The notes under the pieces are model-generated. The model saw nothing but the letters and a program-made list of their open reading frames with translations, ran no database searches and had not been told where the DNA came from. Both the position numbers and the translations under genes were made by a program. Shown one piece after another: positions 8,040 to 12,651 of a stretch of DNA of 64,000 nt. Position 1 is the first letter of the stretch, and each line of letters begins with the position of its first letter. This stretch comes from Streptomyces yatensis. GTDB taxonomy: Bacteria > Actinomycetota > Actinomycetes > Streptomycetales > Streptomycetaceae. The DNA is taken from the NCBI RefSeq assembly GCF_018069625.1, contig NZ_CP072941.1, positions 2,418,001 through 2,482,000 of the forward strand. Reading direction: 5' to 3'.

Positions 8040-8326
8040 GCTGACACCCGCTCGAAGAGGTAGCCCGCAGGTCTCTGCGGACATCAGTAGGGCGGCCATC
8101 CCCGACCACGGACAGCCGCCCCTACCGAGGATCGTGCCGTTCACCCGCACGGTCCGGCCGCCGGTGGGTGAGCGCATCTGGACGATGACATGCGGGGCAC
8201 GGGCCATACGCCCAGCCTGGTGCCACACCTCGGCGCGCGCACCCCCAGGCCAGCCCCCGTGCGCCCTACCGCACACCCCAAGCCCGCGCCACCATGGCCC
8301 TCACTTCAACGAGACGAGGGAGCGCC
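8040..8326. other. Gene-poor boundary, possible small-protein remnant
   Basis: No intact gene seen. On the minus strand about 8130-8215 encodes APHVIVQMRSPTGG followed by RTVRVNGTILGR. This resembles the N-terminus of a small conserved Streptomyces protein, but it runs into unrelated sequence, so it may be a fragment. An inverted repeat TAGGGCGGC/GCCGCCCCTA lies at about 8090-8127. This is the left edge of the accessory island. Confidence 0.3.
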
Positions 8327-8434
8327 ATGGGCAAGCACAGCGGCAAGCCGGACGTAGCCGAAGGCGACGGGCACAAGCCCGACAAGCCCATCCCTCCAGC
8401 CCAGCCGACCCCACCCAGGCCCCAGCCGAAGTAG
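8327..8434 (+). CDS. 35-residue Lys/Pro/Asp-rich peptide, candidate RiPP precursor
   Basis: The reading frame starts at ATG 8327, after GACGAGGGAG, and gives a 35-residue peptide beginning MGKHSGKPDVAEGDGHKPDK and ending PTPPRPQPK. It has no hydrophobic segment, is rich in Lys, His, Gly and Pro, and carries three aspartates (positions 9, 14 and 19), two of them in KPD repeats and one in the aspartimide-prone pair DG. The stop codon ends 5 nt before the ATG of a PIMT-type methyltransferase, so the two are translationally coupled. Two-gene aspartimide RiPPs (imiditides) have this organisation. That the peptide is a modification substrate is inference; it could also be a leader peptide. Confidence 0.6.
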   Translation: MGKHSGKPDVAEGDGHKPDKPIPPAQPTPPRPQPK

Positions 8435-8439
8435 GCGGC

Positions 8440-9571
8440 ATGCTCACCGCGAACGGCCCAGCCGCACTCACCCAGATGCTCAGCCACGGCGGCCACCTCT
8501 CCGCCGACTGGCGCGGCCCATTTCTGCGCGTCGACCGTGCCCGGTTCATCCCTGACCGCATCTGGGTCCGCGGCGACGACGGCTACACGCCCCTCGACCG
8601 AGCCGCCGACCCCGACCGGTGGGACCATCTCGCCTACGCCGACGAGGCACTGGTAACCCAGGTCGAGGACCCGCCCGACGCCGAGGTGGCGCGCACGCCG
8701 TCCAGCTCGGCGAGCATGCCGCGCATCGTCGCCCGCATGCTCGCCGCACTCCGAGCCGAGGACGGTCACCGCGTACTGGAGATCGGCGCGGGCACCGGCT
8801 ACAACGCAGCACTCCTCGCAGCCCGGCTCGGCGACGAGCAGGTCACCTCGGTGGAGGTCGACGCCGAACTGGCCGAGCGGGCGCGCGCCAGCCTCAGGAC
8901 CGCGGGGTACGCACCCGCCGTGGTCACCGGTGACGGCGCTGAGGGCTGGGTGGCGCGTGCGCCGTACGACCGGCTCATTGCGACCTGCTCCGTGCACGAC
9001 GTGCCGCGCGCCTGGATCGAGCAGACCAAGCCGGGCGGGATCATCGTGATCCCGTGGGGCACCACGCTGCGCAACGGCGTGCTCCTCCAGCTCACCGTCG
9101 AGCACTGCCCCGACGGACCTGTGGCATCCGGCCGGGTTGTGGACGACGCGGCGTTTATGTGGATGAGGGCACAGGCACCGCCGCGGGACGTCATGGCCAT
9201 CGCCCGGGCAAACCCCCGACAGCCACACCGGACTCGACCCGCACGTCCTCGGCAACGATGACGCCTGGTTCGCGGTCGGAGTGCTGGTTCCCGGCTGCCA
9301 GTGGGCTACGGGCCAGGGGCCTGACGGTGCGTGGACGCTATGGCTCGCCGACGCGGGCACCGGGTCGTGGGCGTCGGTCGACTACGAGCCGGACGCTGTC
9401 GAGTACGACGTGCAGCAGCACGGCCCGCGCCGGCTGTGGGCCGAGGTCGAGGCGGCCCACGCCTGGTGGGCGGATGCTGGTCGCCCGGCCCGCACGCAGT
9501 TCGGGCTCACGGTGACGCCTGCCGGTCAGCAGGTGTGGCTGGGCGACCGGGGAAAGGCGCTGCCGGTGTAG
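8440..9571 (+). pseudogene. PIMT-type protein O-methyltransferase, frameshifted near the C-terminus
   Basis: The frame from ATG 8440 encodes a protein-L-isoaspartate-methyltransferase-like enzyme with SAM motif VLEIGAGTGYNAALLA and post-motifs PYDRLIATCSVHDVP and PGGIIVIPWG. It stops at 9261 (273 residues). The family's C-terminal domain (SHTGLDPHVLGNDDAWFAVG, later WLADAGTGSWASVDY) continues in another frame to 9571. One extra base in 9206-9217, most likely in the AAACCCCC run, explains the break; without it the protein would be 376 residues. PIMT homologues in RiPP clusters methylate Asp to form aspartimide or isoaspartate. The catalytic core is intact, so partial activity is possible. A sequencing error is not excluded. 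Confidence 0.72.
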
Positions 9572-9819
9572 GGGGCCCACTCGGCGGGGCCGGCAGCCGA
9601 GTCCGGCCGCCGGCTCGACCGCGGCGTCGGCCCCGGGACCACCCTGCTCGCAGAGCAGATGCAGCAGCGCCACGGTGGCGCGTGCTTCGCCTCGGGTGAT
9701 CGGCGGCTCGCGCTTGCCCGGCTCCTCGATCATCGCCCCTGTCTGCGCCTCGTCCATGCGCCGCCCAACCGCCGCGTGGGCGCCGTGGTCACGGCCATAC
9801 CGGGCGGAGTGCGTGCCCG
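9572..9819. other. Non-coding or decayed spacer
   Basis: No intact gene. On the minus strand about 9640-9760 encodes MDEAQTGAMIEEPGKREPP and then ITRGEARATVALLHLLCEQ, which looks protein-like. The frame then runs antisense into the methyltransferase tail without a sensible end. It may be the start of a decayed small gene. Confidence 0.3.
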
Positions 9820-9894
9820 CGCGGGGTAGCTCAGTCAGCTCAGAGCAGCCGGGCGCCGGTCCGGCGGTCGCGGGGTTCGAATCTCCGCCCCCTG
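9820..9894 (+). pseudogene. tRNA-like remnant
   Basis: The stretch folds as a tRNA. The acceptor arms CGCGGGG and CCCCCTG pair at six of seven positions including one G-U. T8 and A9 are present, the D-stem is GCTC/GAGC, the anticodon stem is GCCGG/CCGGC, and the T-arm is CGGGG-TTCGAAT-CTCCG. The anticodon loop has eight bases and no U at position 33, and no CCA is encoded, so it is unlikely to be a working tRNA. Integrative elements often leave such 3-prime tRNA copies; the neighbouring phage fragment fits that reading. Confidence 0.55.
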
Positions 9895-9911
9895 AGGGCG
9901 CGCGCGTACGA

Positions 9912-9949
9912 GGGAGCCCCACCCGAGATCAGATCGGGCAGGGCTCCTC
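9912..9949 (+). terminator. Hairpin downstream of tRNA remnant
   Basis: Outer arms GGAGCCC (9913-9919) and GGGCTCC (9941-9947) and inner arms CCCGA (9922-9926) and TCGGG (9934-9938) form a stable hairpin. It separates the tRNA-like sequence from the phage-protein fragment. Confidence 0.65.
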
Positions 9950-9958
9950 TGCTGTGCT

Positions 9959-10187
9959 GCCCACTCCCCGGTGGGACCCACGGGTCCGCCGGGCGCGGAC
10001 GGGAAGGACGGCCGGAATGGGGCCGATGGGCGGGACGGGCAGACCTGCCCGGACGGGTACAGCCTCCAGCCGCTGCCGGACGACCCCAACGCCCCTCGTC
10101 TGCCGCCGCAACGGATCACCTGCCCCGGAGCCCGACCCGAGCCCGACCACGCCGGCCGCACTTGCTCCCGACCGGCGCCGCCTTTGA
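9959..10187 (+). pseudogene. Frameshifted C-terminal fragment of collagen-like actinophage protein
   Basis: One frame encodes collagen-type Gly-X-Y repeats followed by the phage tail motif (GPTGPPGADGKDGRNGADG, then RDGQTCPDGYSLQPLPDDPN). At about 10092 the homology moves to the next frame, which reads LVCRRNGSPAPEPDPSPTTP and then AALAPDRRRL before a stop at 10187. Together these resemble the C-terminal end of collagen-like proteins of Streptomyces phages and prophages. One extra C in the gcccctc stretch explains the shift. No N-terminal part exists upstream, where a terminator hairpin lies instead. This is a dead prophage remnant. Confidence 0.7.
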
Positions 10188-10244
10188 CACAAGATGCCCC
10201 CTCGTCTGATCTTCGGACCGGGCGAGGGGGTTTCGTCGTGTCAA
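10184..10244. terminator. Nested bidirectional terminator hairpin
   Basis: TTGACAC (10184-10190) pairs with GTGTCAA (10238-10244), and inside it CCCCCTCG (10197-10204) pairs with CGAGGGGG (10223-10230), which is followed by TTT. The phage fragment's stop codon lies in the outer arm. A second small hairpin, GGCCCCC/GGGGGCC, follows at about 10256-10277. Confidence 0.85.
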
Positions 10245-10311
10245 GGAAGCGCGACGGCCCCCACCGAAATGGGGGCCGATCGGCCGTACCACTGGAGCCG
10301 ACCAGGGGTAC

Positions 10312-10340
10312 ATTGCGAGTGTCAGCACGCAATTGGGAGT
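10312..10340 (+). promoter_or_regulatory. Direct repeat before the XRE regulator gene
   Basis: ATTGCGAGT (10312-10320) and ATTGGGAGT (10332-10340) are spaced 20 bp, about two helical turns, and end 4 nt before the ATG; each is followed by a TCAG or CAG. The second copy contains the probable ribosome-binding site (GGGAG). An autoregulatory operator is a reasonable guess; nothing here proves it. Confidence 0.4.
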
Positions 10341-10344
10341 CAGT

Positions 10345-11565
10345 ATGCCCGAGACCAGCGACAAGCACATCGGCGCACGCATCCGCGAATTCCGCCTCAT
10401 CCGAGACTTCTCCCTCGCTGAGCTGGGCCGACGCGCCCACGTCTCCACCAGCCAGCTCTCCCGAGTTGAGACCGGCGAACAGCCAGCCAGCCCGTCTGTC
10501 CTGGCGGCGGTCGCCCGCGCACTCGGGGTGACCCTGTCCGTACTGCACGGCCAGCCGTACATCCACATGCTCCAGAAGGATCAGCTTGACCGGCTGCTCG
10601 CGCCGATCAGCAGCGCGCTGGACGCGTGGGACATTCCCCCCGAGGACGATCTGCCGCTACGCCCGCTGGACGACATCGCGGAAGATACGAAGGTCGTCGC
10701 CAGGAAGCGCGCGCAGGGGAAGTTCGGTCCGGTGGCGGAGGCGCTGCCAGAGCTCATCACCGATACGGCTCTCGCCGTACAGACGTACACCGTGCCGGGC
10801 AGGGACCGCGAGCGAGCGCACAACCTCCAGGCCGAGATCGCGCGGACTACGGCGATCGTCGCGTACCGGCTCGGGTACATGGACTTGGCCCGGCTCGCCC
10901 TGGCGCGCATGGCCGTAGCGGCGCCCCAGTCCGGTGACCCGCGCCAGGTCGCTGTTGAGCGGTACGAACGGGCCGTCATCACCCACGCCGAGACGTCGCG
11001 GCCTGACCGCGGCGTGGCCCTGATGAAGCGTGCGCTGCGCGACCTGGAAGACGACGGCGACCCGGCGACCATGGCCGTGCGGGGCACCTTGCTGCTGCGC
11101 GCCTCGGCGCTCAGCGCGGTGCAGAAGGACCACGCTGCTGCGGGGGATTGGCTCGGTCAGGCCGAGGCGCTGGCCGAAGCCGGAGCGGCTGCGGACGCGG
11201 CGGAGGAGCCGCCCGGGTCTCGGTACGCCCTGGCGTTCGGGGAACTGAACGTCAATCTGGGGCGGCTGGACGTCGCGATGTTCCAGGACGATTACGAGAC
11301 CGCCGTCCGCGTCGCCGGAGACGTGCGGCTGCCCGACTCGTACCAGCCCACCAGGGTCGCCGGGTTCCTGATCCGGCGGGCCAGCGCGGAAGCGTGGACA
11401 GCACGTCATGACGACGCGCTCGCCTCACTGGAGCAGGCCCGCGAGAAAGCGCCGCAGTTGACCCGGTACCACCCCGAGGTACACCAGACTGTCGGGACCC
11501 TGTTGCGGGCGCGGCAGAGGGCGACTGAGCCGCTGCGCGAATTCGCCCAGTGGAGCGGCGTGTAG
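10345..11565 (+). CDS. XRE-family regulator with TPR-like sensor domain
   Basis: A 406-residue regulator. An N-terminal XRE helix-turn-helix (residues about 8-65: IGARIREFRLIRDFSLAELG, then STSQLSRVETGEQ) is followed by an all-helical, TPR-like region to the end (for example LGYMDLARLALARMAVAAPQ and HDDALASLEQAREKAPQLTR). Such long XRE/TPR proteins are common in Streptomyces accessory regions and often respond to signalling peptides or small molecules. ATG 10345 follows GGGAG. Three small overlapping genes start 112 nt downstream on the same strand and are plausible targets. Confidence 0.83.
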   Translation: MPETSDKHIGARIREFRLIRDFSLAELGRRAHVSTSQLSRVETGEQPASPSVLAAVARALGVTLSVLHGQPYIHMLQKDQLDRLLAPISSALDAWDIPPEDDLPLRPLDDIAEDTKVVARKRAQGKFGPVAEALPELITDTALAVQTYTVPGRDRERAHNLQAEIARTTAIVAYRLGYMDLARLALARMAVAAPQSGDPRQVAVERYERAVITHAETSRPDRGVALMKRALRDLEDDGDPATMAVRGTLLLRASALSAVQKDHAAAGDWLGQAEALAEAGAAADAAEEPPGSRYALAFGELNVNLGRLDVAMFQDDYETAVRVAGDVRLPDSYQPTRVAGFLIRRASAEAWTARHDDALASLEQAREKAPQLTRYHPEVHQTVGTLLRARQRATEPLREFAQWSGV

Positions 11566-11597
11566 CCAACTCGGCACGCTGAGTCAATGCTCCGGTG

Positions 11598-11612
11598 TCC
11601 CTACCTTAGGGA
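11598..11612. promoter_or_regulatory. 15-bp palindrome upstream of small-gene operon
   Basis: TCCCTA-CCT-TAGGGA is a perfect palindrome with six-base arms, 65 bp before the ATG at 11678 and 32 bp after the XRE regulator's stop. Its place between regulator and operon suggests an operator. No second copy was seen before the regulator itself. Confidence 0.4.
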
Positions 11613-11677
11613 AATCGGGGCCTTGCCTCGTCGGCACGATGTGACGGTCAGCACACAGACCGCGCATGGAGCCGACC

Positions 11678-12277
11678 ATGACGACCAGAAACCTGCCGTG
11701 GCAGCCGCCGAACGCCGACGACATCGAGGCGTTACCGGTGGGCAAATGGTGGGACGCCATCTCCGCGCCCACCCCTGTCGCCGACCGCGCTCTGGAACTG
11801 ATCGGCCACCGATCCGGCGCCGTCATCCAGGACGACACCTACGGCAAGACATACTGGCTGATCGGCATCGACACCGCCCGTAGCTGGTGCGTGCGCCAGA
11901 TCCGCGTCCTCACCGAACTCGCCGACGAAGGCACCCTCCTCGGCGTACCGCCCGCCTCCTGGGTTACTGGCCGCTCCTCGTACTGGCGCGTCCCGTTCCG
12001 TCTCGACCGATGCCTCACCGACACCCGGCTGCTTCACGACGCCTTGGCCCGGGCCGTCAGGGAGATCCTCGGCCCGACACCGGACGGTCGGCAGCTCTGC
12101 TACCGCTGCCAACTGCCCACCGACGAACCGGTCCCGGTCGCCATCGCGCACAGCGGCAGCGTCGCCGGCCGCACCGTCTACGCCTGCCCCACCCACGCCC
12201 GGGACTACCCGGCGGCCGACGCCATGACCCAGGCCGCCGCCATGCGCCGCGCCCTCGACCGAGGCAGGACCCGATGA
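11678..12277 (+). CDS. Unrecognised 199-residue protein with Cys/His cluster, TTA codon
   Basis: Function not recognised. The protein is soluble, with an N-terminal part starting [20 protein letters not shown] and a possible zinc-binding cluster near the C-terminus ([13 protein letters not shown], then [12 protein letters not shown]), ahead of a final Arg/Ala-rich helix. Start ATG 11678 is preferred over ATG 11666 because GGAG lies 6 nt before it. Codon 19 is TTA (11732-11734), implying dependence on the bldA tRNA. Its stop overlaps the next start as ATGA. It probably works with the two following genes. Confidence 0.7.
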
Positions 12278-12453
12278 CGGCCCCCGAACCCATCGCCGAC
12301 CCGCGCGCCGATGGGTCGTGGCGGGCGGCCCTCGATCACGCCGCGGGCTGCCCGGCCTGCCGGACGCCCGGCGCCGTCTGCTCGGAGGGTGAGCGGCTGT
12401 TGCACGCCCACGAGGAGGCCACTCGGCAGGCCCGGGCAGGAGGCCCCGGATGA
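12274..12453 (+). CDS. 59-residue Cys-containing small protein
   Basis: Unrecognised function. It contains [19 protein letters not shown], a CxxC plus third-cysteine pattern seen in small Streptomyces proteins that lie in such regulator-linked strings, and a helical C-terminus. It overlaps both neighbours by ATGA (12274-12277 and 12450-12453), so the three genes are one translationally coupled operon. Confidence 0.65.
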
Positions 12454-12593
12454 GGCGCCGTCGCCAGACCCCTGCCGTACGGGCCGCGCTGCTCGCCTTC
12501 CGCGCCGCCCGCCTGGGCCTTCTGCTCGGCGCGATTCCCGCGTCGGTGGTGCTCGCGGTCTACCTGTGCGTCGCGGCCGACCCGTACCGATAG
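12450..12593 (+). CDS. 47-residue single-pass membrane peptide
   Basis: The frame begins [20 protein letters not shown] and has one hydrophobic segment (residues about 22-42, [20 protein letters not shown]) before a short ADPYR tail. The positive N-terminus predicts an N-in, C-out orientation. It starts within the stop of the preceding gene (ATGA). The small size and membrane segment would allow a signalling, toxin or anchoring role, but nothing decides between these. Confidence 0.6.
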
Positions 12594-12596
12594 ACC

Positions 12597-12651
12597 GGGT
12601 GGGCTGCTGGGCTCCGGGCCCCCGCTGGAGCGCGCGACCAGCGGCCCACCC
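12597..12651 (+). terminator. Long-stem hairpin ending the small-gene operon
   Basis: GGGTGGGCTGCTGG (12597-12610) pairs with CCAGCGGCCCACCC (12638-12651) with one mismatch, beginning 4 nt after the last stop codon. It is placed as an intrinsic terminator without a T-run. Confidence 0.8.

Follow-up and report, generated by a model that had tools for sequence, protein, structure and literature searches.

A candidate imiditide (type I pamtide) gene pair in Streptomyces yatensis with a frame break in its methyltransferase gene

The window analysed here is a stretch of 64,000 nt from Streptomyces yatensis (contig NZ_CP072941.1, positions 2,418,001 to 2,482,000), and all positions given below refer to it. 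It carries a 35-codon gene directly followed by a gene for a PIMT-like methyltransferase (PAMT), and we consider it very probable that the two are an imiditide pair, with the chemistry at Asp14 of the peptide carried over from characterised members. Imiditides, an alternative name for type I pamtides, are an already published class (PMC10787088, PMC13001092). An earlier, sequence-only reading of this DNA had proposed a two-gene system for an aspartimide RiPP akin to imiditides. Two results support that proposal, namely the presence of the enzyme gene behind the peptide gene at 21 of 21 loci and the invariance of Asp in the peptide; the chemistry itself we infer.

The peptide gene and its family in Streptomyces

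The precursor peptide gene lies on the plus strand at 8327..8434 (ATG to TAG, 35 aa, MGKHSGKPDVAEGDGHKPDKPIPPAQPTPPRPQPK), as seen by direct reading and family comparison, and is preceded on the same strand by the ribosome-binding site GAGGGAG (8316..8322), 4 nt before the ATG. Its stop codon is separated by 5 nt from the ATG of the methyltransferase gene at 8440. Direct reading thereby bears out what had been described first, a 35-codon gene with a ribosome-binding site that ends 5 nt before a methyltransferase, and the sequence likewise contains the reported Asp residues at positions 9, 14 and 19, which stand in the contexts KPD, DG and KPD, respectively. With an alternative in-frame ATG at 8294 the peptide would be 11 residues longer; the start at 8327 is preferred because of the ribosome-binding site and the relatives. 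In L047 and L048, the loci of two close relatives, the 16 bases upstream of the peptide start are identical to those of the window. No family in NCBIfam or Pfam matched the window peptide at E 1, and four peptide sequences of the family were not found in the literature searched, of which the main text without figures was covered.

When 199 Streptomyces genomes were searched with a single sequence, 30 loci were fetched; an enzyme was present within the 1.6-3.1 kb examined at 8 of them and absent there at 22. A profile built from seven peptides was then run over 392 Streptomyces genomes and yielded at least 21 strong places in 17 genomes at E ≤ 1.6e-6, with the next match at 8.6e-5; as 19 candidates were scored per genome, the number of 21 is a lower bound. 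A PAMT gene lies directly downstream of all 21 strong peptide matches listed, at a gap of -4 to +14 nt, a linkage count that covers the strong matches only and leaves aside 23 weaker ones (E 8.6e-5 to 0.005). As many as 14 of the 21 strong matches are absent from the rows of the search profile, and since all 21 precede the same kind of enzyme, the pairing is more than chance. Orthologous enzymes without the small frame, or without its Asp residues, ahead of them had been named in advance as evidence against the proposal; the frame and its first two Asp are present at all 21 loci. Judged by these comparisons, the window peptide is the product of a genuine conserved gene and a member of this family.

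Some further observations concern individual members. L088 is a decayed family locus that lacks a usual start codon and whose enzyme is broken, and the enzyme of L094 appears by eye to be without the stretch around PWGT. L091 and L092 (G300:C1 96363 and 8815918) encode identical peptides and like-sized enzymes on opposite strands, about 96 kb from each chromosome end, and this pair seems to be located in terminal inverted repeats. A plasmid search with the L048 enzyme matched 37 records, none of them at ≥60% identity.

Distinct peptides, 21 in number, were obtained from 20 of the 21 places (one identical copy was removed) and from L094. They are rich in Pro (22.8%), Gly (14.9%), Lys (14.7%) and Asp (10.3%), and the mean length in the family is 36 aa. 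Close pairs within the family show the pattern of strong purifying selection, with pN 0.024 versus pS 0.245 for the peptides of L052/L084 and pN 0.036 versus pS 0.40 for L084/L085. The pooled pN/pS over 209 peptide pairs is 0.54, a value obtained at synonymous sites that are already far changed (pS 0.53). The window peptide and the two closest to it are set apart by 1-2 amino-acid changes and zero synonymous ones, and this is too little for selection to be demonstrated among the three.

Two Asp positions are invariant in the 21 distinct peptides. The first, Asp9 in the window, is followed by Thr in 14 peptides, Pro in 4 and Val in 3. The second, Asp14, is followed by Gly in all 21 and then by His in 20 and Lys in 1. 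At the third position Asp is found in 15 peptides and is replaced in the other 6 (Glu 3, Asn 1, His 1, Gly 1), so that by this comparison the third Asp is dispensable. A basic residue occurs among the last five positions of every peptide. An aspartimide can form only if the following residue has a backbone NH, and Pro is without it. As 4 of the 21 peptides have Pro behind the first Asp, this residue was ruled out as the modified site of the whole family; the constant Gly makes Asp14 the likely modified residue. Its codon and that of Gly15 (8366..8371, plus strand) are likely the best candidate for the aspartimide/isoaspartate site. The weight originally placed on the KPD repeats does not survive this comparison, given the replacements of the third Asp and the Pro behind the first; it is DG that is invariant instead.

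The methyltransferase and its frame break

The methyltransferase frame extends over 8440..9261 on the plus strand (273 aa) and comprises the catalytic core and an out-of-frame tail. It matches TIGR04188 with about 270 bits (family cut-off 380) and Pfam PCMT with 112 bits, and the SAM motif that had been announced for it was found, VLEIGAGTGYNAALLA. The enzymes of the two close relatives, L047 and L048, are intact (379 aa) and reach TIGR04188 scores of 344 and 350 bits, also below the cut-off. Nucleotide alignment with these two loci, which are 98% identical in DNA, places the frame break at 9209..9210 (plus strand), where the window carries a net 8-nt deletion and one substitution. The window enzyme has its sequence in common with an intact relative up to residue 257, and the last 16 aa, beyond the break, are non-homologous. 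A remnant of the C-terminal domain continues in another frame of the plus strand at 9218..9571 (TIGR04188 match 9218-9535; ORF 9281-9571, 69 bits), and this remnant includes WADAGRP, an instance of the WXXXGXP motif, at 9467-9487 (plus strand, by motif reading), out of frame in the window. Sequencing error was considered and judged unlikely: a net loss of 8 nt together with one substitution does not look like the result of a single-base homopolymer error. From these alignments, the enzyme frame is one that recently lost its last third with the C-terminal domain.

The PIMT of T. maritima (1DL5) can be aligned to the model of the L095 enzyme from residue 1 to residue 368, whereas most of the other top PIMT matches stop by about residue 244. 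Comparison with this model and with an intact relative shows that in the window almost none of the C-terminal domain is still in frame. It had been stated earlier that the frameshift falls beyond the catalytic core, and this is correct, the break being near 9209 and the frame ending at 9261. Of the further suggestion, a decaying or partially working copy, the 8-nt deletion agrees with decay; partial function is unlikely, because nearly all of the C-terminal domain is out of frame. In NmaM, modification was greatly decreased when an acidic loop of the C-terminal region was replaced (PMC13001092). The window pair is probably inactive, and with the C-terminal domain of its enzyme lost the peptide would most likely stay unmodified in this genome, unless another PAMT acts on it.

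The strain is not devoid of this enzyme type, as it has at least two more pairs. L002 (G000:C1:6987763-6988782) and L003 (G000:C1:4802503-4803528) are full-length PAMT frames of the same genome with Pro/Lys/Asp-rich peptides of 34 and 39 aa directly upstream, likely additional type I imiditide pairs by their sequences. Another PAMT-like gene, L006 (G000:C1:2368893-2369975), is preceded by an ORF whose end resembles by eye a radical SAM protein, and rSAM-PAMT pairs are mentioned in PMC10787088. Upstream of the PAMTs at L107, L111, L133 and L138 we noticed another peptide subfamily, with the common core LPGEP(Y/W)PGP..PP(T/S)PDGGP.

That the pair still works in the window's genome, with the peptide modified by the truncated enzyme or by another PAMT, would be compatible with the intact peptide gene, with the few changes that the window copy alone has acquired after the break and with the further PAMT-like genes, two of which have type I-like peptides of their own. 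Against this stand the loss of nearly the whole C-terminal domain from the frame, the identity of only 31-58% between the window enzyme and its other matches in the genome, and the description of imiditide class members as highly specific (PMC13001092), and we consider continued function improbable.

The extra C-terminal domain and the WXXXGXP motif are present across the family and absent from the 273-aa main frame of the window and from L088; the motif was found in 19 of the 21 listed enzymes (18 distinct), these two being the exceptions. This bears on a second alternative, in which the methyltransferase would have some other role, e.g. protein repair, and the upstream ORF would be a leader or coupling ORF and not a substrate. 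The tight spacing of the two genes would suit such an arrangement, but the peptide sequence stays conserved while the family enzymes go down to about 40% identity, both of its invariant Asp and its basic C-terminus are retained, and all 19 listed enzymes besides the two exceptions have the RiPP-associated motif. The repair PIMT (Pcm) and 1DL5 have the same catalytic fold, and 1DL5 shares the C-terminal extension. Repair PIMTs are not known to pair with a small conserved peptide gene. Their substrates are damaged proteins (PMC10787088). We regard a leader or coupling ORF as quite unlikely.

Enzyme tree and gene neighbourhood

A quick tree with one support value was made of 103 enzymes. The window enzyme falls within a starred set of 10 rows, all 10 of which belong to this peptide family, and the enzymes of the family as a whole form two groups on the tree. 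Enzymes adjacent to an ATP-grasp gene, 21 among 80 named loci, were identified by sequence comparison with six upstream proteins, all six of which match TIGR04187. Across the deepest branch (support 92) from the window enzyme lie 19 of these 21. The other two, L127 and L129 from Actinomadura, are located on the window's side of that branch, outside the peptide family, and a change of partner among pamtide-type enzymes is a possible explanation for their position. Partner changes have thus occurred on both sides of the tree, which by itself would be insufficient to decide the class.

Comparison of 8 neighbourhoods revealed no third gene common to them, only the peptide and the enzyme being common to all. 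The neighbours are varied and include an arginyl-tRNA synthetase (L050), a trypsin-like protease (L049), an acyl-CoA dehydrogenase (L053) and DUF397 and DUF5753 proteins (L051). A Pfam scan of 10 neighbouring proteins of L049-L053 and of 9 around the window pair revealed no RiPP enzyme. No graspetide ATP-grasp genes were found at E 1e-6 in the 9.5-20 kb around each of the 21 family loci. In 8 genomes there was likewise no TIGR04187 match near the pair, the drafts G073 and G150 being readable only to the ends of short contigs; the nearest match is about 46 kb off in G090, where it adjoins a methyltransferase of its own, and G100 has none.

Next to the pair, the region 9571-12600 of the window varies between close relatives. 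A helix-turn-helix regulator gene in it (10345-11565) has a counterpart of 37% identity in L048 and none in L047 at E 1e-5. A tRNA-like sequence at 9820-9895, just downstream of the pair, has an abnormal two-base anticodon. A tRNA-anchored element was rejected: the ARAGORN match in the window is a poor one, and 10 related loci gave none.

The best NCBIfam match of the window enzyme, TIGR04188, is named ATP-grasp peptide maturase system methyltransferase, and this name, together with the position of L127 and L129, would fit a remnant of a graspetide cluster (TgmA/TgmB/TgmC) with its ATP-grasp gene lost, a reading we consider extremely unlikely: it was rejected on the lack of ATP-grasp genes in the 9.5-20 kb around the family loci, in part also on the 19 of 21 ATP-grasp-adjacent enzymes beyond the supported branch, and both the sub-cut-off TIGR04188 scores of the window frame and the two intact relatives and a peptide without an NCBIfam or Pfam match speak against it.

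Comparison with known systems and predicted chemistry

In type I pamtides, as Lee et al. 2023 (PMC10787088) describe them, a cluster has two genes, one for a PAMT and one for a precursor of about 45 aa that is rich in Gly, Pro and Asp; for SpaA/SpaM, species of +14 and -18 Da were demonstrated in the same work. The characterised pairs NmaA-NmaM of Nonomuraea maritima and SpaA-SpaM of Streptomyces sparsogenes consist, as here, of two genes with a short linear Gly/Pro/Asp/Lys-rich precursor. The likeness to these two is judged from published descriptions. According to PMC10787088 and PMC13001092, the class further shares with our family a conserved Asp near Gly/Pro, conserved charged ends, a PAMT with an extra C-terminal domain and WXXXGXP, and a frequent occurrence in Streptomyces, and the composition of the family peptides is close to the type I profile given in PMC10787088. 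The subfamily described here differs by its PD....DG core and its shorter peptides (mean 36 versus about 45 aa), by the predicted Asp-Gly site, NmaA being modified at an Asp followed by His (PMC13001092), and in the window by the truncated enzyme. Cysimiditides, or type II pamtides (FcaA, TceA, NalA), also combine a precursor with a PAMT and Asp modification and carry two zinc-binding CXXCXGXG motifs, whereas Cys is absent from the window peptide. Aspartimidylated graspetides (TgmABC; fuscimiditide, amycolimiditide, SsfABM) agree with the pair in predicted chemistry and have a methyltransferase related to its own (TIGR04188), but their precursor is first cross-linked by an ATP-grasp enzyme (PMC10787088), and none is present beside the pairs here. 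Except for the truncation of its own enzyme, the window pair has every type I pamtide feature examined.

For the reaction, the site and the recognition roles we follow the characterised class members. As an imiditide system, the small gene would give rise to a linear precursor peptide, and the adjoining PAMT would use SAM to methylate the Asp14 side chain. Attack of the Gly15 backbone nitrogen on the ester would then form an aspartimide (-18 Da), from which hydrolysis would give isoaspartate or aspartate. Recognition by the enzyme, above all by its C-terminal domain, would probably involve the invariant first Asp, the basic C-terminus and the residues behind DG.

A more far-reaching interpretation is that the family forms an imiditide subfamily of its own, marked by a two-aspartate code in which the first Asp (PD) would serve in recognition and never be cyclised and the second (DG) would be the site. 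Its members would be bare mobile two-gene units without a common exporter, protease or regulator, and the peptide would have an intracellular function of its own or be served in trans by PAMTs of the same genome. We hold this to be a tentative and rather doubtful interpretation. The window, where the enzyme is lost and the peptide frame kept, would suggest such an own function or such service in trans. The family is of value as a clean comparative set of 21 distinct peptides, which predicts the modified residue from sequence alone. It is accompanied by a natural contrast at the same place, where the enzyme is truncated in one genome and intact in two close relatives.
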